DNA of 35,794 nt, taken from positions 1 to 35,794 of IMG/VR virus record IMGVR_UViG_3300022169_000012. One strand, written 5' to 3'. The translations under genes and the position numbers were made by a program. Below the pieces are notes generated by a model. That model had not been told where the DNA came from. It did no database searches and saw only the letters and a program-made list of their open reading frames with translations. Shown piece by piece: positions 5,121 through 35,718 of the stretch (its first letter is position 1; each line of letters opens with the position of its first letter). This stretch comes from a virus.

Positions 5121-5594
5121 GTGGCTAAACCACTTAATTTCAAAGATTTTTTGGCAGTAGACTATGCGCCGGGCCAAGACGGTCAGATATCCAAGAACGC
5201 GAAGAAGCGTAAACAGGATACCGCGACTGGAAACACTGGGGAAAGTAAAGACCCCTTCTGGGCAGAGGACTCTGAACAAAACGAAGTCTTGAGTTTCCAA
5301 GGACGACGTGCCCTTGCACGTGCGATGAAACGCAACAAGTCCAGAATGAAGATGGCTCGTAAACGATCCATGCAGAAGTCGGCAACTAAAGACACTCTCA
5401 TGAAACGTGCAACCAAACAAGCACGGAATCAACTATTCAAAAAGTTCAGTAAGGATGCCTCCCGAGGTGACCTCACTCCACAACGTCGTGGAGAAATTGA
5501 AAAGCGAGTGGGTAAAATGAAGACTCGCGTCTCGGCAATTGCACGTAAGTTATTGCCTAGTGTTCGTCAGACTGATAAGGATAGAAAATCGTAA
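5121..5594 (+). CDS. Basic late protein, putative virion/internal protein
   Basis: A strongly basic protein of 157 residues. The frame is open from a GTG at 5052 and an ATG at 5100, but neither has a ribosome site; GGAGG at 5111-5115 lies five bases ahead of the GTG at 5121, so I prefer that start. The N-terminus then reads MAKPLNFKDFLAVDYAPG, related to other late proteins here that begin with an F-x-x-F/Y-L segment. The middle holds KNAKKRK and Arg/Lys-rich helices (ARAMKRNKSRMKMARKR), which suggest DNA contact inside the head. It overlaps the next gene by one base. A DNA-binding internal protein is an inference. Confidence 0.7.
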   Translation: MAKPLNFKDFLAVDYAPGQDGQISKNAKKRKQDTATGNTGESKDPFWAEDSEQNEVLSFQGRRALARAMKRNKSRMKMARKRSMQKSATKDTLMKRATKQARNQLFKKFSKDASRGDLTPQRRGEIEKRVGKMKTRVSAIARKLLPSVRQTDKDRKS

Positions 5595-7318
5595 TGTTAC
5601 CCTCATTTAAACAATATTTGGTTGAAGAACAGAGAGAAGTCTTCTTCACCTACGGTAGAATGAACCCTCCTACGACAGGTCATGGTAAGTTAATGAACGC
5701 CATGTCTGCGAAGTCGGGTAAATCCCCCTATAAGATCTACCTGTCTCAGACTCAGGACGCAAGAAAGAACCCCCTCAGTTACGACCAGAAGATCAAACAC
5801 GCACGTAAGATGTATCCTAAACACGCACGTAGCATCATGTCAGACAAAGGTTCTCGTACCGTCTTTGATGTTGCAGTAAAGTTATATGATGAAGGATACA
5901 ACAAAGTCAATATGGTCGTGGGTGCAGACCGTCTCACCGAGTTTAAAACTCTCCTGAACAAGTACAACAACGTCAAGGGTCGTCACGGATTCTATAACTT
6001 TGAGAAGATTAATATCATCTCATCTGGTGATCGTGATCCTGACGCAGAGGGGTTGGAAGGTATGTCCGCCTCTAAACAGAGAGACAATGCAAAACAGAAC
6101 GACTTCACGTTGTTCTCACAGGGCATTCCCACCTCTATGTCTAATCGCGATGCAAAGAAACTATTCAACGATGTACGCATAGGTATGGGTCTTAAAGAAA
6201 CCCGTGAGTTCTACCATAAGTTAAACTTAGAACCTGTATCAGAAACTCGTGAGAAGTATATCGAAGGTGAGTTGTTTGTTGAGGGTGATAAGGTAACAGT
6301 CAAGAGTGGTCAGACCGGATCTATCCATCGTCTAGGAACTAACTATGTTATCGTTGCACTAGACGAAGGTAACGTAACACGTCAATGGTTAGAAGACGTA
6401 GAACTGATCGAGAACTCCCCTATTGTTAAGAAAGGGGTAGTAATAACCACCAAGAAACAACCCGAAGAAGGTACCCCTCAAGCAGTCAAGAAGGCAGTCA
6501 AGATGACTCCCGGTATTGATCGTGCACAGAACATCCTGAGTCGTCGCCGTTCTTTCAAAGAAGAAGTATCTCAGAAAGAACTCAATGACCTAGAGAAGTT
6601 TGCTGATCGTCTCCTGAATAAGTTTGATGTTGACATCGAGTTCACACGTCACTTTGCTGACCGTATGAATGACAAACGTAACAAACCTGCTATTACTGTT
6701 GCAGAGTTACAACGTCTGTTCAAGAAGATGGCCGCCAACAAGGGTAAGAAGATCAAGAAACACGGTAACTCAGAGGCAATCCTCAAGGATATGCAGTCTG
6801 ACCTTAACCTACCTGTCGTGATCAACTGGAAGAACGGTGAGTTCGAAGTTGTTAACAAAACAATAATGCGTAAGAAAGCATTCAAGTCACCTGATCCCGA
6901 ACTCAAGTATGAACAAGTCATTGAGTCGGTGGAAGAGATTGATGAGATGTCTACCGCTCGTGCTATCACTGCTTTTCTTTCGAAAACATTTAAGGCAAAG
7001 AAGTATAGAGAAGTTGCCAAGTTTGTTCGAAAGGAAATGGAGAAGGACAAAGGTCGTCACGGTGCAGAGTACCATGCTGCACAGATTCTACGCAAGTACA
7101 ATGTCAAAGGTGTTGATGCACGTGAACTGGGTAAAGTCGCAAAGATGGCAGAGTCCATAGTCACAGAAGATGCAGTAGATCGTGCCAAAGAGAGAATCAA
7201 TCGTGAGAAGGAACAGGATATGAAGAAACACGACCGTATCCTTGACCGTGCGAGACTTGCACGTACGAACGCAATCAACCGTAAAACCAAACCTAAGACT
7301 AATGAGGAAAAGAAGTGA
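5594..7318 (+). CDS. Late multidomain protein with HIGH-type nucleotidyltransferase domain
   Basis: A 574-residue protein. Residues 1-12 (MLPSFKQYLVEE) resemble the T4 capsid-targeting sequence. Residues 16-165 look like a cytidylyltransferase-type HIGH-superfamily fold: TTGH at 27-30 takes the place of HIGH/TxGH and GMSASK at 156-161 that of the KMSKS loop. Next comes a small beta domain (about 222-270; FVEGDKVTVKSGQTGSIHR) that resembles KOW-type modules. An HFADRMNDKRN domain begins near residue 353, and the C-terminus is a long basic helix. Marine T4-like phages carry related proteins annotated as cytidylyltransferases. The substrate is unknown. Its N-terminus and late promoter suggest that the enzyme is packaged in the head. 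The stop overlaps the next start (GTGA). Confidence 0.75.
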   Translation: MLPSFKQYLVEEQREVFFTYGRMNPPTTGHGKLMNAMSAKSGKSPYKIYLSQTQDARKNPLSYDQKIKHARKMYPKHARSIMSDKGSRTVFDVAVKLYDEGYNKVNMVVGADRLTEFKTLLNKYNNVKGRHGFYNFEKINIISSGDRDPDAEGLEGMSASKQRDNAKQNDFTLFSQGIPTSMSNRDAKKLFNDVRIGMGLKETREFYHKLNLEPVSETREKYIEGELFVEGDKVTVKSGQTGSIHRLGTNYVIVALDEGNVTRQWLEDVELIENSPIVKKGVVITTKKQPEEGTPQAVKKAVKMTPGIDRAQNILSRRRSFKEEVSQKELNDLEKFADRLLNKFDVDIEFTRHFADRMNDKRNKPAITVAELQRLFKKMAANKGKKIKKHGNSEAILKDMQSDLNLPVVINWKNGEFEVVNKTIMRKKAFKSPDPELKYEQVIESVEEIDEMSTARAITAFLSKTFKAKKYREVAKFVRKEMEKDKGRHGAEYHAAQILRKYNVKGVDARELGKVAKMAESIVTEDAVDRAKERINREKEQDMKKHDRILDRARLARTNAINRKTKPKTNEEKK

Positions 7319-8805
7319 GGGACTACGCGAAAGAGTATGCCAACTATCATTCTGATCCCGAACAGATTAAACGACGGACTGCACGAAATGCGGCACGTCG
7401 TGCAATGCGAGGTCGTAAAGATCTGACTGACGAGAAGGACGTTCATCATAAGGATAACAATCCTATGAACAACGACAAATCAAATCTCTCTATTGTGACT
7501 CAACACTACAATAGAAGAGAACCTAGACTGCGTATGGAAGATCTCCGTAAGTGGTTTGGTAAAGGAAAGAAGGGTGATTGGGTTCGTGTAGGTACCGATG
7601 GAGATATCAAGGGTGACTGTGCAAGAGAACCAGGCGAAGGTAAACCTAAGTGTATGCCCCGAGACAAAGCACACAGTATGAAGAAGAAAGACCGTGCATC
7701 TAGTGCACGTAGAAAGAGAAGTGCTGACCCAGATACAGATCGACCGGGAACAGGAAACAAACCTATTATGGTTAAGACAGATAAAAAGGAATCAGCAGGG
7801 ATGCAAGAAAAAACTAATTGGAAAATGGGTGATGGACGACCAAGGAACGGCGCTCGTATCGAAAACGATAGATTCTGGAACTTACCAAAAGCGCAATTGA
7901 TGTACATTAGGAAAGATGCACATGATGCCATGAAAGCAAATCCTACTGGAAAAAAGGCAGGAAAGTACGCAGACGAAGTCAATGATGCTGCAACTGTTTT
8001 GGCTTGGAGAAAGAAAAACGGTATAAGAGAGTCGGTCGAACTTGAAGAAAAAAACGTACCTACTAACCCTGCGTTATGGTCTAAGTTTAAGTCACAGGCA
8101 AAGGCAAAGTTTGACGTATATCCCTCCGCATATGCAAACGGATGGGCATCTAAACAATATAAAGCTGCCGGTGGTAGTTGGAAAACGGAGAGTGTACAGG
8201 AAATGATGACTTTTAGTCAGATGAGAGAAGCGGTTCAAGATTGGAAAGTTACGGTTACAAAACCAGTCAACAAGTTAAAGAAAGGTGCATCCCAGTCAGT
8301 TAAAGCCCGTTCTGCATTTGAAGCAATCAACAAAGCAATCAAACTATGGGGTGATCCAGCTCTTAAAACGGCACCAGCAAGTTCGTTTAGTGTTGCTAAA
8401 GATAAGTTTCCCACTAACACTAGTGCTACCCAAGGTAAACGAATGGGAGAGTCGGTAGACCTCGAAGAAGCAAAGGAAATGACCTACACTGTAGTTCATG
8501 CTAGGAAAGGTAAGGTTGTAGTTAAAGCAACTAGTTCATATGATGCGGCACAGAAAGCGGCAAAGCAATGGAAACTAAAGTCTACTGCCGGTGTTGATGC
8601 TTATCTTATGGAGGAAAATGTTGATGAAACAAAAGTACCTGCACTAAAAACCTCAGATTATCCCAAAGGCACTTCTCAGTCTGCACAGGCATTCAAAGAT
8701 AGGTTCGCTAAAAAGAAACCTGTATCTCAAATGACTCCTGCTGAGAAAGCAGCGAACGATAAGAAACGTAAAGAATACAACGCCTACCAGAAATCTAGGA
8801 AATAG
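7315..8805 (+). CDS. Composite late protein: HNH-like, DUF5872-like and other small domains
   Basis: A 496-residue basic protein starting with GTG in a GTGA overlap. Residues 1-70 contain an HNH-like core (DVHHKDNNPMNNDKSNLSIV, with the His pair at 44-45 and His64). A W-F-G-K-G-K-K-G-D-W-V segment with CAREPGEGKPKCMPR follows, then FWNLPKAQLMYIRKDAHDAMKANP. Around residues 252-295 is a DUF5872-like stretch (KFDVYPSAYANGWASKQYK). Two nearly identical linkers, ESVELEE and ESVDLEE, separate parts. At codon 298 an internal ATG (8206) gives MTFSQMREAVQD, which again looks like a capsid-targeting N-terminus. The make-up suggests a virion protein assembled from modules and perhaps cut by the prohead protease; nuclease activity is possible but unproven. 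Confidence 0.7.
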   Translation: MRDYAKEYANYHSDPEQIKRRTARNAARRAMRGRKDLTDEKDVHHKDNNPMNNDKSNLSIVTQHYNRREPRLRMEDLRKWFGKGKKGDWVRVGTDGDIKGDCAREPGEGKPKCMPRDKAHSMKKKDRASSARRKRSADPDTDRPGTGNKPIMVKTDKKESAGMQEKTNWKMGDGRPRNGARIENDRFWNLPKAQLMYIRKDAHDAMKANPTGKKAGKYADEVNDAATVLAWRKKNGIRESVELEEKNVPTNPALWSKFKSQAKAKFDVYPSAYANGWASKQYKAAGGSWKTESVQEMMTFSQMREAVQDWKVTVTKPVNKLKKGASQSVKARSAFEAINKAIKLWGDPALKTAPASSFSVAKDKFPTNTSATQGKRMGESVDLEEAKEMTYTVVHARKGKVVVKATSSYDAAQKAAKQWKLKSTAGVDAYLMEENVDETKVPALKTSDYPKGTSQSAQAFKDRFAKKKPVSQMTPAEKAANDKKRKEYNAYQKSRK

Positions 8806-8827
8806 GATTAGTTAAGGAGACAACCAC

Positions 8828-9649
8828 ATGGCACAGTACTCAACATTTAGACAGAATCACTTTGGTAGAAGGAATAAAGACCTTCACGAAGTGGTTATGT
8901 TGGCAGACAAAGACGGTAACCTATCAAACGCCTTTGGAGCGGCATCTAACATCCCATTATCAAATGGTGATATTTCGGGTTACATACCCGTACATAAGTT
9001 TGGTGCGATTGACGGCACTGTCGGTACTGGTTGGTCAACTGTTTGGACTGGTGCGGAAACTACTGATCAACAGTTGTATCCTTGGCCTGCAATCGGTGCT
9101 GCCAGTGTTGTTACTGTAGTATCTACTAGTGGCAGTGACATAACTACTGTTACACTAGAAGGTTTGGATGCTAACTATGCATTCCAGACTGAGACTCTTA
9201 CCTTGACTGGAGAAACACCTGTAACTGGTGCCAAGACTTGGCACAGAATCAACCGTGCGTTTATGTCTGGTACTGCCACTAACGTGGGTACTATTATTGT
9301 TAAGAATGCGACACCTACTGTTATCACAGAGATTAAAGCAGGGCGTGGGCAATCACTACAGGCATTTTACACTGTTCCCGCAGGTTGTACTGGGTTCTTA
9401 AATAGTATACAGATGACTTCAAGTAAGGCCCAGCCAGCAGAGATATCTATGTTTGCCCGTCCTTTTGGTGGTGCATTCCGAGTCGTTAGTGGGGTGTTCT
9501 TATACCAAAGTGACCACACTATCGAGTATGCTACTCCGATTAAGTTCACTGAGAAGACCGACATTGATGTTCGTGCTATTGGTGCCTCTAACGGTGTTAT
9601 ATCGGTGTCGTTTGATTTAGTCCATGTTGAAAATAGTGTCCTTACATAA
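8828..9649 (+). CDS. Putative virion structural protein (beta-rich)
   Basis: A 273-residue protein with a strong AAGGAG ribosome site. It is rich in Thr, Val, Gly and Ser and poor in charge, with repeated beta-strand patterns (SVVTVVSTSGSDITTVTLEG) typical of fibre, decoration or capsid-surface proteins. The motif TVWTGAETTDQQLYPWP and the closing VSFDLVHVENS segment resemble structural proteins of other marine phages. There is no enzyme motif, signal peptide or membrane segment. Late-gene neighbours on both sides agree with a virion role; its exact position in the particle is unknown. Confidence 0.7.
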   Translation: MAQYSTFRQNHFGRRNKDLHEVVMLADKDGNLSNAFGAASNIPLSNGDISGYIPVHKFGAIDGTVGTGWSTVWTGAETTDQQLYPWPAIGAASVVTVVSTSGSDITTVTLEGLDANYAFQTETLTLTGETPVTGAKTWHRINRAFMSGTATNVGTIIVKNATPTVITEIKAGRGQSLQAFYTVPAGCTGFLNSIQMTSSKAQPAEISMFARPFGGAFRVVSGVFLYQSDHTIEYATPIKFTEKTDIDVRAIGASNGVISVSFDLVHVENSVLT

Positions 9650-9668
9650 ATCTGTACATTTCATAAGG

Positions 9669-9676
9669 TATAAATA
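9669..9676 (+). promoter_or_regulatory. T4-type late promoter TATAAATA, almost at the start codon
   Basis: An exact TATAAATA box only five bases ahead of the ATG at 9682. With the usual T4 spacing, transcription would begin at or very near the start codon, so mRNA from this promoter would be leaderless or nearly so. AAGG at 9665-9668 could serve as a distant ribosome site on read-through transcripts. Confidence 0.65.
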
Positions 9677-9681
9677 GATTA

Positions 9682-9951
9682 ATGAAATCATTTAAACAAC
9701 ATTACAACGAAGCGACTTATCAGGGGAAGAAAGTTTCTCTGAATAAACCAATGTCTGGGGATGTAAAGAAGTCCAAAGTTTATGTTGACCCTGACGGTGA
9801 CGGTAAGGCAAAGAAAGTTAACTTCGGTGACAAAAACATGACGATCAAGAAGAATATTCCTGCCCGTCGAAAATCATTCAGGGCACGTCATAACTGCGAC
9901 AATCCGGGCCCAAAAGACAAGGCGCGATATTGGTCGTGTAAGGCGTGGTAA
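9682..9951 (+). CDS. Small basic late protein with capsid-targeting-like N-terminus
   Basis: An 89-residue basic protein. It begins MKSFKQHYNEA, close to the T4 internal-protein leader MKTYQEFIAEA, with an NE|A site where gp21-type proteases cut. The remainder matches a family widespread in phages and large viruses: a VYVDPDGDGKAKKVNFGDK stretch and a C-terminal PARRKSFRARHNCDNPG...RYWSCKAW signature with two Cys. The basic signature suggests nucleic-acid contact. Late promoter directly ahead. I infer an internal head protein; its activity is unknown. Confidence 0.75.
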   Translation: MKSFKQHYNEATYQGKKVSLNKPMSGDVKKSKVYVDPDGDGKAKKVNFGDKNMTIKKNIPARRKSFRARHNCDNPGPKDKARYWSCKAW

Positions 9952-9952
9952 T

Positions 9953-10243
9953 ATGAGTGCAGATACAAACGCAAATCGTCTAAATCGCATCGAAGAAAAA
10001 ATCGATAAGATGACCGATGCCATTGTTTCACTAGCAAGGGTGGAAGAAAAAATCGAAGACTTGGAAACACGTCGAGCGGAACAGCACGAACGGATGAACC
10101 GTTTGTCCGGTAAAATCGACAACATAGAAACACACGTAACTACTCTAGTAGAGAAAGTTGCGTACATGCAAAAGTTTGTTTGGATAGTCTTAGGTACTAT
10201 TGCAACCTGTCTTAGCGCTTACTTTACACAATATATTTCTTGA
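9953..10243 (+). CDS. Coiled-coil protein with C-terminal membrane anchor (XhlA-like)
   Basis: A 96-residue protein. Residues 8-68 show heptad repeats (RLNRIEEKIDKMTDAIVSL), and a single hydrophobic helix near residues 73-92 (FVWIVLGTIATCLSAYFTQY) ends the protein. This tail-anchored layout is like XhlA-type haemolysin/holin-associated proteins and some phage membrane proteins, so it may assist lysis. Similarity is in layout only. Confidence 0.6.
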   Translation: MSADTNANRLNRIEEKIDKMTDAIVSLARVEEKIEDLETRRAEQHERMNRLSGKIDNIETHVTTLVEKVAYMQKFVWIVLGTIATCLSAYFTQYIS

Positions 10244-10261
10244 TCGGAGAAACTAAACAAA

Positions 10262-11242
10262 ATGAACAAAGAACTGTACGACAAAATGGCAACCCTCTGG
10301 TCACAGGTAACTGAGAAAACCCTTGATCCAGTAGATAAAACAGCGGTCAAGAAGAAGTTTGATGACCGTAAAGACCAAGACTTAGACAACGATGGAGACA
10401 CCGACTCTACGGACAAGTATCTTCATAAGCGTCGTAAGGCGATCACTAAGGCGGTCACAAACGAAGATGCGGACGAAATGACCGAGTGTCCAGAGTGCGA
10501 TGGTTCTACAGAGAACCACGATCCGGATTGTCCTCGTGCCGAAAAAGGTGACAAGAAGAAGATCGACGAGAAGGATCTTGACCAAGACAACACTAAGAAG
10601 GCATTGAAGCACGACTGTGCATCTCATGTGACTTCAGAACAGTGGGGTTATGGAGAGTGTCTCGCTGGTGAACATACTCTGGTAGAACAAGAAGACGGTA
10701 CTGGTGTTGTTACTCATTACGTAGTAATGTTTGAACATGGTGTAGAACTCGTTTCTGTAGAAGAACTGACTGTCGTCAAAGAGAAGTCTCATATTCATGC
10801 AGGTAAGAAACCTCCTTTCGATGGCCCTTATAGTAAATCAGATAAGGAAACCAAGGATCGTTTTGGAAACGTTGTCAAGAAGAAGAATCTCGCAAAACAC
10901 CTAGCAAAGAAAGGTATGTCGAAGTTTGCAAAGAAAGAGTCGTATACTCCTGAAGATATGGAAAGCATGATTGATGCCGCAATCGACTTAGCACTCACCG
11001 AGAAGACTCGTGAGAAGAAGACTGGTGAGAGTGCACTTGACAAGTTCAAAGGTAAAGGTTCTAAGGACATGGCAGCAGACAATAGCGTCGGCAGTCCTAA
11101 AGAAGCAGACATCACAACCGATGAAGAAGGTCACGATGATGCGTCAAAGGCAGGTAAAGTAACTAAAGCTGCAAAAGCACGTGGCGCTGGAGACCAACTT
11201 TCCAACGGCGATAAGACTATAGTAAAAGGAGGAACGAAGTAA
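10262..11242 (+). CDS. Late acidic/basic repeat-rich protein with Ca-binding-like DxDxDG motif
   Basis: A 326-residue, highly charged protein. Near residues 39-58 it has DQDLDNDGDTDSTDKYLHKR, a dockerin/EF-like calcium-binding signature found in several phage late proteins. A CPECDG...DPDCPR cluster at about 75-90 could bind zinc. Residues 118-170 form a distinct small domain (HDCASHVTSEQWGYGECLAG). The C-terminal third is low-complexity with KTREKKTGES and DLALTE. It overlaps the next gene by one base. Several LxE sites could be cut by a prohead protease. A scaffold-like or internal virion role is possible; I do not recognise a named homologue. Confidence 0.65.
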   Translation: MNKELYDKMATLWSQVTEKTLDPVDKTAVKKKFDDRKDQDLDNDGDTDSTDKYLHKRRKAITKAVTNEDADEMTECPECDGSTENHDPDCPRAEKGDKKKIDEKDLDQDNTKKALKHDCASHVTSEQWGYGECLAGEHTLVEQEDGTGVVTHYVVMFEHGVELVSVEELTVVKEKSHIHAGKKPPFDGPYSKSDKETKDRFGNVVKKKNLAKHLAKKGMSKFAKKESYTPEDMESMIDAAIDLALTEKTREKKTGESALDKFKGKGSKDMAADNSVGSPKEADITTDEEGHDDASKAGKVTKAAKARGAGDQLSNGDKTIVKGGTK

Positions 11243-14336: not shown

Positions 14337-14792
14337 ATGCAAATGAGAAGTATTTTAATTATACTCTTAATGATGATAAGTGTACATGTGTGGGGACAAT
14401 CTAGTTCTGTCAGCATGGCGTTACCAAGTTCATCACAGAGTTACCAGTCCGACAGAGTTCGGGCAGGACAGTTTGAGTGTACACAGGCCATTGGTTCTGC
14501 AACGAATCTAGAGTTCGGTGTAGTAGGCGTGTTGAACCAGAACGATCCATACGATACATACAACCAACAGAACGTCGGTGTGTATCCCGAAGGATACAAT
14601 CCTAACGGATTCATGAGAGACGTTGGAGTGTATGCAAAAATAACAATTCCATTGGGGAAGGTACCCAAGACAAGGTTGGATTGTAACCGACTATATCAGT
14701 TAGAGTTACGTGCAAGGGAATTGGAAATAAAAAAACTGGAAGCAGAGGTATACAATCTACGTAACCTCAAGTTTGCAGAGGGCACGGACTAG
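14337..14792 (+). CDS. Exported protein with C-terminal coiled coil
   Basis: A 151-residue protein that starts one base after the preceding stop. The signal peptide (RSILIILLMMISVHVWG) is cut before QSSSVSM. The mature centre has AGQFECTQAIGSATNLEFG and a DVGVYAKITIPLG beta segment, with Cys in FECTQ and LDCNR; a short coiled coil (LRARELEIKKLEAEVYNLRN) ends it. It resembles a small outer-membrane-linked or periplasmic protein. Fifth and last of the exported series. Function unknown. Confidence 0.65.
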   Translation: MQMRSILIILLMMISVHVWGQSSSVSMALPSSSQSYQSDRVRAGQFECTQAIGSATNLEFGVVGVLNQNDPYDTYNQQNVGVYPEGYNPNGFMRDVGVYAKITIPLGKVPKTRLDCNRLYQLELRARELEIKKLEAEVYNLRNLKFAEGTD

Positions 14793-23832: not shown

Positions 23833-24513
23833 GTGTTAACCTTTGAACAATTTTTAAACGAGGGTGTCAATGACCCTGCAATCTTCAAAGCAATCTTCCT
23901 TGCGGGCGGGCCAGGTTCTGGTAAGTCATTCATTGTCGGTAAGACAGGTCTGACCTCTATGGGTTATAAAGTTGTAAACTCTGATGATGCGTTCGAGTCT
24001 GCAATGAAGAAGGCTGGTATGGAAATGGATCCAGACAACATCTTCTCTGTTCAAGGACAAGAACTTCGTGGTAAGGCAAAGAAACTAACTGGTACCAAAC
24101 AAGCTATGTACATTAAGGGTCGTCTAGGTTTGGTAATCGATGGCACTGGTAAGGATCCACGTAAGATTTCTAAACAGGCAATTCAACTACGTGCGCTTGG
24201 TTACGATGTCGCAATGATTTTCGTAAACACTGATCTCGATACTGCGATCTCCCGCGATGCACAACGTTCTCGTACACTGGGTGCTAAAGGCGTCACAGAT
24301 TACTGGAAAGCGGTACAAAAGAATATTGGTAATTTCCAGCAAATGTTCGGTAAAAAGAACTTCCTAGTAGTGGATAACTCTGAAGGTAAGGATTACCAGA
24401 AAGAGACTGTCCGTGCATACCGTGATGCCACTAAGTTCACTAAGGCACCTATAGCGAATAGTAAGGCGAAGGGTTGGATCAAGAAAGAGACGGCCAAGCG
24501 TAGTAAAAGATAA
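23833..24513 (+). CDS. P-loop kinase with capsid-targeting-like N-terminus
   Basis: A 226-residue protein. It begins MLTFEQFLNEG, close to the T4 internal-protein leader with an LNE|G cleavage site. A Walker A motif GGPGSGKS follows at residues 25-32, then VVNSDDAFE and a GLVIDGTGKDPRK segment, like zeta-toxin or polynucleotide/nucleoside kinases. A basic tail ends it. The enzyme may phosphorylate a nucleotide, sugar or nucleic acid. With its own late promoter and a host-type promoter after it, it stands alone as a late gene among non-late genes. Start is GTG with AAGGA upstream. Packaging in the capsid is inferred. Confidence 0.75.
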   Translation: MLTFEQFLNEGVNDPAIFKAIFLAGGPGSGKSFIVGKTGLTSMGYKVVNSDDAFESAMKKAGMEMDPDNIFSVQGQELRGKAKKLTGTKQAMYIKGRLGLVIDGTGKDPRKISKQAIQLRALGYDVAMIFVNTDLDTAISRDAQRSRTLGAKGVTDYWKAVQKNIGNFQQMFGKKNFLVVDNSEGKDYQKETVRAYRDATKFTKAPIANSKAKGWIKKETAKRSKR

Positions 24514-34766: not shown

Positions 34767-35041
34767 CTATGCCAAATGAAAGACGTAATGCTGTTAACCG
34801 TACTCGTATATTCTTACTTGACTTAATGGATCCTAAGAAGACACCACGTGTACCAAAATCCATAAGAAAAGAAGCGGCAAGTTGTCTGAGACATTACCCA
34901 GGCGAATACTATATGCTATTAGCTTCAGAACAGGCACCAGAAGTATTTGGTGAATGGAATAGTGGATGGCCAGACCTAGACCTAGAGAGTGACCCTGTTC
35001 TGGCGGTAATAGACAAAGTTTTTGAAGAACACGGTAAGTAA
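34763..35041 (+). CDS. BPSL0761-like small protein
   Basis: A 92-residue protein whose start MTMPNERRNAVNRTRIFLLDL and PKSIRKEAASCLRHYP segment match the BPSL0761-type family known from bacteria and phages. Function unknown. ATGA overlap with the membrane peptide. Confidence 0.65.
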   Translation: MTMPNERRNAVNRTRIFLLDLMDPKKTPRVPKSIRKEAASCLRHYPGEYYMLLASEQAPEVFGEWNSGWPDLDLESDPVLAVIDKVFEEHGK

Positions 35042-35042
35042 A

Positions 35043-35366
35043 ATGATGAACGAATACACACCAGACAACTGGGTTGTGTTGAAAATAACTTCTAGTGAAG
35101 AAACATTATATAAGGTACTCGGTGGTTGGAGTGGTGGGTATCTTGATGGTGACTCTTGGCGGATGAACAGCGGTATCACTGGCGTAGAGAAACAAGCATA
35201 TCTGTATGGATTCTACGGTAGCTCTGGTTCTGTGTATTGGTGCCATCAAGGAGGTTACGGGTTGCGTATGAATAACACCGGCGTGTATAATCAACTTAAA
35301 GAACGCTTTGGGGATGCAGTTGAACTGATGCCTGAAGACACTAATTGGCATGAGGTGAAGTGGTGA
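35043..35366 (+). CDS. Tandem paralog A, small beta-rich phage protein
   Basis: A 107-residue protein. The frame is open from 35022, but ATG at 35043 (with another at 35046) follows GGTAAG and matches the start of its paralog. Key segments: YTPDNWVVLKI, GGWSGGYLDGDSW, MNSGIT, GLRMNN and MPEDTNW. The same segments occur in the next gene. T4-like phages carry single copies of this family, with no known role. Confidence 0.7.
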   Translation: MMNEYTPDNWVVLKITSSEETLYKVLGGWSGGYLDGDSWRMNSGITGVEKQAYLYGFYGSSGSVYWCHQGGYGLRMNNTGVYNQLKERFGDAVELMPEDTNWHEVKW

Positions 35367-35379
35367 AAGGAGAAGATGA

Positions 35380-35718
35380 ATGATCATTGAAGGTGGTGGT
35401 AGATATACCCCAGACAACTGGGTGGTACTAAAGTTTGACATTGAAGGATCTCCAGTTATCTATAAAGTATTATGTGGTTGGTCAGGAGGTTATCTTGACG
35501 GAGATGCGTGGCAAATGAATAGCGGTATCACGATGGTCTTTGAAAGAGAAGATAGAGTAGACTTCTACGGTAATAGCGGCAGCTGCTATATCTGCTATAA
35601 AAACTCTTATGGTCTGCGAATGAATAATGCAGGTATGTTCGATAAACTGAAAGCGGGGTTTGGTGACGGCGTTGAGATGTTGCCAGAAGATACTAATTGG
35701 CGGGAGATGGAGTGGTGA
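35380..35718 (+). CDS. Tandem paralog B, small beta-rich phage protein
   Basis: A 112-residue protein behind AAAGGAG. It repeats the layout of the preceding gene: YTPDNWVVLKF, GGYLDGDAW, MNSGIT, GLRMNNAG and PEDTNW. Two tandem copies show a local duplication followed by divergence. The two genes may work as a heteromer or differ in specificity. Function unknown. Confidence 0.7.
   Translation: MIIEGGGRYTPDNWVVLKFDIEGSPVIYKVLCGWSGGYLDGDAWQMNSGITMVFEREDRVDFYGNSGSCYICYKNSYGLRMNNAGMFDKLKAGFGDGVEMLPEDTNWREMEW

Follow-up and report, generated by a model that had tools for sequence, protein, structure and literature searches.

A chain of small modules joined by (L/I/V/M)xE linkers in a marine T4-like virus: a candidate prohead polyprotein

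The chain at 7315-8805 and its neighbouring genes

The window analysed here is a 35,794-nucleotide stretch from an uncultured marine T4-like virus (IMG/VR record IMGVR_UViG_3300022169_000012). The open reading frame at 7315-8805 (+ strand) begins with a GTG that overlaps the upstream gene's stop codon, is oriented like its neighbours, and encodes a chain of 496 amino acids that is predicted, from the reading frame and its relatives, to be a prohead polyprotein. A protein scan of IMG/VR returned 80 relatives of up to 770 amino acids, in which the same modules recur in differing order and company. The AlphaFold model of the whole chain, made with seven mosaic relatives, had a mean pLDDT of 41, which is too poor for module borders or fold searches.

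Six predicted products, all on the + strand, can be laid out along the chain (a bar marks a predicted cut). Product 1 (7315-7809, residues 1-165) would comprise an HNH-like module (residues 2-73) and the EDLRKWFGKGKKG module (residues 75-158) and end at GMQE|K; it matches phrog_12753 and phrog_3477 at approximately 1e-13, and no (L/I/V/M)xE is found between its two modules. The HNH label given by the first-pass annotation holds weakly, with a PF13392 match (E = 5e-4) that is under the Pfam curated cut-off and matches to PHROG HNH families down to 2e-6. This is the sole Pfam match in the chain, and the search found no peptidase domain. The DUF5872 label proposed alongside it was rejected, as the Pfam search at E <= 1 gave no match. 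Product 2 (7810-8049, residues 166-245) would consist of the NWKMGDGRPRNG module, which among the relatives has xxE before it in all but one of 9 contexts (8 of 9), followed by the linker IRESVELEE; within this linker, ESVELEE (8029-8049) has predicted cuts after E239 and E245. Product 3 (8050-8202, residues 246-296) would carry the KNVPTNPALW module and end at ESVQE|M. It is followed by an internal peptide resembling a capsid-targeting sequence (CTS), MMTFSQMRE|A (8203-8229, residues 297-305). Product 4 (8230-8469, residues 306-385) would contain the DWKVTVTKPVNKLKKG module, the spacer FPTNTSATQGKRMG and the linker ESVDLEE (8449-8469), with predicted cuts after E379 and E385. Product 5 (8470-8628, residues 386-438) would hold the TYTVVHARKGKVVVKATSSYDAAQKAAKQWK module and end at YLMEENVDE|T, leaving product 6 (8629-8802, residues 439-496) with the KVPALKTSDYPKG and PVSQMTPAEK modules, each of which is found separately in other chains.

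The two ESV(E/D)LEE linkers lie within 1 nt of where they had first been placed, and the accompanying claim that their DNA is repeated is borne out by a 45-nt direct repeat of 71% identity with a 23-nt core identical at 20 of 23 positions (3 differences). Seen in a single protein, the pair might reflect chance or duplication, but it is far beyond chance, since the same linker recurs at one junction after another in the relatives.

The upstream gene (5594-7318, + strand) encodes a cytidylyltransferase chain (phrog_395, E = 1e-68) with a CTS-like N-terminus, MLPSFKQYLVE|E, and an internal linker, ESVEEIDE|M, at 6923-6946. Among named phages, C48C1 (Kyanoviridae) comes closest; its cytidylyltransferase shares 61% identity with this upstream protein over 48% of the latter. 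Several C48C1 proteins have N-terminal CTS-like sequences, and one of them is a chain with an ESVELEE linker; related modules are also present in Methylophilales phage Melnitz. Downstream of the chain, the gene at 8828-9649 (+ strand; phrog_8198) encodes a homologue of S-CREM2 ORF176 (37% identity, E = 6e-43). The small protein at 9682-9951 (+ strand) opens with the CTS-like MKSFKQHYNE|A; next comes a YQGKKVSLNKP module, which in C48C1 and Melnitz has an internal position behind LTE|A or MME|S. A further protein of the cluster (10262-11242, + strand) contains a DxDNDGDTDSTDKYLHKRRKAI module, and a module of the same type occurs inside the gp22 scaffold protein of the related contig L110.

Homologues of several of these proteins have been found in virions. 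Mass spectrometry of purified virions of cyanophage S-CREM2 detected ORF154 (a cytidylyltransferase), ORF155, ORF160 and ORF176, the last with 20 peptides (PMC10665884), and a cytidylyltransferase was also detected in virions of S-SM1 (PMC3037559). ORF154 begins with MKNFSSFLTEADE and is 35% identical to the upstream protein of the window, while ORF155 begins with MSRFEELR. The likeness of ORF160 to the window chain is limited to phrog_727 and only two shared modules (40% and 42% identity), and its detection in virions is not evidence of cutting. Separately, residues 17-70 of ORF160 (L206, 6343-7236) match phrog_696, 'major head protein' (E = 5e-10); either the family is misannotated or ORF160 may contain a fused region that resembles a head protein.

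Two other loci of the window were noted in passing. At its end, 35022-35366 and 35380-35718 encode adjacent paralogous small proteins (VLKxxxxxYKVLxGWSGGYLDGDxWxMNSGIT), a tandem duplication. At 23833-24513, a P-loop kinase-like protein (GPGSGKS) with a GTG start begins with the CTS-like MLTFEQFLNEG and, judging from this N-terminus, may be packaged in the head, too.

The internal capsid-targeting-like peptide

The resemblance of the sequence at 8206 to a capsid-targeting sequence, pointed out in the first-pass annotation, is upheld by comparison with C48C1, as MTFSQMREA resembles the N-terminal CTS MKDFFELREA and MKKFTEIREA of that phage. Of the ACAGGA described before it, AGG lies at 8198-8200, 5 nt upstream of the in-frame ATG at 8206; a second in-frame ATG lies beside it at 8203. 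These features would fit two proteins from two starts, the second beginning at ATG 8206 and headed by a CTS of its own, and T4 offers a precedent in gp21, which has an essential internal start (PMC9026906). Among the relatives, L012 has lost the Met, L015 has it at a shifted position and L013 is without the entire peptide, and no Shine-Dalgarno-like bases are found before the internal start in L002, L006, L008 and L014. These losses rule out the start at 8206 as a conserved feature and make the two-protein explanation highly improbable; a start at this position is possible in the window, L001, L003 and L004. The peptide itself is mostly kept across the relatives and is conserved better than its start site. 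It may be the CTS of a formerly separate gene that was fused into the chain, either a relic or an element that still functions at its internal position.

The N-terminus of the chain carries no CTS; it starts with MRDYAKEYANYHSD, the HNH module, which is internal in relatives. Where true N-termini can be recognised elsewhere by an upstream stop and a ribosome-binding site, the order is CTS, linker, module. An example is L183, which begins MKDFFELRESVDLEE-NKIFFVKVGDGRD (module NKIFF) and whose linker-module unit is internal in L005. Two further observations concern the position of such sequences. In the chains of L102, L114 and L148, a CTS-like sequence (ESTALKTLSDIRE or similar) is located at the C-terminus, which recalls the C-terminal propeptide of T4 Alt. 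In C48C1 (L203), a small gene between gp20 and gp21 has the CTS MRTFKELREA at GTG 14434, which is probably its true start, whereas the annotated start is at 14491.

Linkers and module borders

The linkers of the relatives' chains have the consensus ES[V/T]x(L/M/I/V)xE, within a broader ES[V/I/T] type. Borders were located by seeking modules from one chain behind unrelated sequence in others, which avoids borders defined by the motif itself. Among 166 module starts re-found in this way, [LIVMF]xE stands exactly at the border in 87, compared with 3.8 in random placement (maximum of 10 in 300 trials); about half of the borders are without an exact site. ES[VIT] is missing at 91 of the 166, and 41 of these keep [LIVMF]xE within 2 residues. 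The KNVPTNP module, which follows the first window linker, illustrates the point: (L/I/V)xE precedes it in 13 of 13 contexts (YLDE, YIEE, SLDE, SIQE and VLNE among them) while the rest of the linker varies. Generic borders taken from all local alignments pointed in the same direction (49% vs 32%) but were noisy, and the context-controlled test was used instead.

Within the window protein, all 10 [LIVMF]xE motifs fall at junctions, some of them with V or M at P3, although its scarcity in the rest of the chain does not reach significance when this protein is taken alone (P = 0.16). Across the family, no depletion of LxE was found inside modules, so the selectivity of any cutting would depend on folding.

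The acidic positions of the linkers differ in how they tolerate Asp. In approximately 130 distinct linkers, the ratio of Glu to Asp is 109:4 at P1, compared with 73:39 at position 4 (P = 5e-10) and 42:55 at P2 (P = 4e-19), and it is 74:2 at P1 once sites with similar flanks are removed (P = 1e-6 and 1e-15). Cleavage by T4 gp21 occurs after L/I-X-E, and an Asp in the final place prevents the IPIII propeptide from being processed (PMC9026906). The linkers thus display the pattern of a substrate of the S77 protease family, (L/I)-x-E with Glu and not Asp at P1. The Glu-only P1 also argues against cleavage of the phiKZ type after S-X-E; a cut of this kind at E-S-V-E is ruled out, as the Glu there exchanges freely with Asp (73:39).

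These counts bear on the explanation that the chain is an uncut multi-domain virion protein, with the linkers as flexible or exposed spacers between folded modules. The linkers are indeed acidic and hydrophilic, and the homologues are virion proteins without known cleavage (PMC10665884). However, a spacer predicts neither a Glu-only position beside neighbours that tolerate Asp nor a hydrophobic residue kept two positions before it, and we regard the uncut protein as unlikely. The linkers might alternatively be docking or targeting motifs, remnants of CTS that bind the scaffold core and remain uncut. In accord with this idea, they overlap the tails of CTS or stand immediately behind them (the L183 N-terminus quoted above is an example), and also precede the gp22 core. 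In the T4 CTS, the N-terminal part (residues 4 and 7) governs targeting, while positions 8 and 10 govern processing (PMC9026906). It is the processing part that the linkers keep, mostly without the targeting part, and docking in place of cleavage seems very unlikely.

Cassette turnover and the head genes

The chain of contig L001 has 95% protein identity to the window chain but is short of exactly one cassette. Approximately 215 nt, corresponding to 8399-8613 of the window (+ strand, approximate ends), are missing from it in frame; the gap runs from where the DWKVT module ends to the linker that precedes KVPALK. The absence ends at the ESVDET linker of L001. The flanks of the missing cassette are 93% and 98% identical between the two genes, and most of the remainder is approximately 80% identical. 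A separate difference lies at L001 7435-8001, where approximately 565 nt between the upstream gene and the homologous part include additional N-terminal sequence of the chain; this stretch is absent from the window, in which the gene starts at the GTG on the upstream stop codon. Scanning viral contigs with the linker DNA pattern returned further contigs in which other modules are joined likewise. Among the matches listed (at least 125), 55 of 125 are in open reading frames with at least two linkers, and some others are clearly unrelated.

Could the linkers be mainly DNA recombination seams, without a role in the protein? In-frame loss of a cassette at a linker, with 93-98% identity beside it and approximately 80% elsewhere, is what such seams would leave, and the linkers share a codon signature (Ser TCN, GAG): almost all of their Ser codons are TCN, a larger share than among other ES pairs. 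This shared signature suggests that most linkers probably descend from one another and that part of their similarity reflects descent. The third positions of Ser and Val match the background, yet the P1 Glu is kept, and the borders without ES[VIT] retain (L/I/V/M)xE. A seam and a cleavage site are compatible, so the seam is rejected only as the sole role of the linkers, and in that form it has little probability.

The genes for head assembly were also compared. Neither an S77 protease nor gp23 was found in the 35.8-kb window fragment. In C48C1, the S77 protease, the T4_CASP scaffold and gp23 adjoin one another, and among 25 contigs chosen because they contain related modules or linkers, most of them fragments, 5 have both S77 and gp23. 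The gp23 maturation site was placed by alignment to FLTE65|A66 of T4 (mature chain of 456 of 521 residues), giving predicted sites of TLEE|A, NLQE|A, SLME|A, SLTE|D and FLTE|T in related phages. TLEE|A is the site in two contigs that carry the HNH module of the window protein; consequently, LEE|A of the second window linker equals the predicted site of the shell protein itself in these two contigs.

The same cassettes occur in the scaffold protein. In L110, gp22 lies between gp21 and gp23 and has linker-module units ahead of its T4_CASP domain, and a relative with a 98% identical gp22 core has one unit fewer. Other gp22 proteins have KVESVDF[DE]E just before the core. The cassettes are therefore present in the counterpart of a T4 protein that gp21 is known to cut. 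The L110 gp22 gene (8734-10449) has ESVELEE linkers with its inserted modules; in addition, the L110 gene before gp21 (7525-8070), in the position of T4 gp67/gp68, encodes a module with DELDE|A on one side and DDLDE|A on the other.

Proposed processing and comparison with known systems

From these comparisons, we consider it probable that the chain is a prohead polyprotein cut by an S77 protease into small internal head proteins, and that its linkers double as seams for cassette exchange. The first-pass annotation had raised cutting by the prohead protease as a possibility, and this idea gains comparative support from the (L/I/V/M)xE at borders, the Glu-only P1, the linkers in gp22 and the homologues detected in virions, with the cleavage itself inferred; its other suggestion, two translation starts, did not survive as a conserved feature. 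The chain would be synthesized late and enter the core of the assembling head, where a protease like T4 gp21 would cut after the Glu of (L/I/V/M)-x-E at the linkers and free approximately six small products of roughly 50-165 residues. The products might remain in the head with the DNA or exit with core debris, and those that remain would probably be ejected into the host, by analogy with T4 internal proteins. Modules with their linkers would be gained, lost and swapped in frame between phages.

If true, this reading would account for a large class of mosaic Kyanoviridae proteins annotated as 'hypothetical' and give start and end points for their products. It would also predict a hidden set of small proteins in virions, with possible effects on hosts or host defences, and it would make ES[VT]x(L/M/I/V)xE, with Glu only, a simple rule for finding packaged modules in marine genomes. 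Furthermore, it suggests that proteins could be loaded into T4-like heads from mid-chain or on the scaffold. A broader claim is offered more tentatively, namely that marine T4-like heads possibly use a polyprotein strategy in which a protease-coded array of cassettes, both stand-alone and in gp22, loads exchangeable small injected proteins, and in which in-frame insertion of a linker-module unit recruits effectors.

The T4 internal proteins IPI, IPII, IPIII and Alt are single units from which an N-terminal CTS is removed once by gp21, Alt also being cut C-terminally. The window chain resembles them in its CTS-like M(K)xFxx(I/L)xE sequence, in its (L/I)-x-E sites with frequent Ala or Ser after the cut, and in late expression, homologues in virions and rapid turnover between related phages. 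Unlike them, it has many modules per chain, a site at most junctions, and a CTS-like peptide that is internal; the chain would act like a set of T4 internal proteins, but because an N-terminal CTS is absent it is not classed as one. The scaffold proteins gp22, gp67 and gp68 of T4 are cut by gp21 into several fragments, debris that mostly leaves the head. Several sites for the same protease per chain are likewise predicted here, and gp22 of L110 carries linker-module units; in contrast to the T4 scaffold proteins, each piece between two sites is a distinct, conserved module, exchanged as a whole.

Head proteins of SPN3US and phiKZ have long propeptides that are cut several times after Glu by an S77-related protease (PMC10052503). 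Multiple after-Glu sites in one head protein are thus a shared feature, predicted from sequence in the present case, whereas in SPN3US and phiKZ the cut part is a propeptide before one mature protein and exchange of modules at the sites is undescribed. Polyvalent proteins of phages and conjugative elements, such as DdrB of P1, combine many domains, and packaging into the head and transfer to the host are predicted for them (PMC5512222). The chain is similar in placing many domains in one polypeptide; unlike the large enzyme domains of polyvalent proteins, often with a peptidase of their own, its modules are small and joined by repeated linkers of the prohead-protease type. Nor do its 496 residues show the multiple enzyme or effector domains, usually accompanied by a peptidase, that define the class.

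The open-access literature, against which the novelty of the polyprotein reading was judged, yielded work on T4, SPN3US and polyvalent proteins only, with no description found of a phage head polyprotein split into modules by the prohead protease. Polyproteins are familiar from RNA viruses, and the arrangement proposed for the window chain would be a variation on the packaging of T4 internal proteins.
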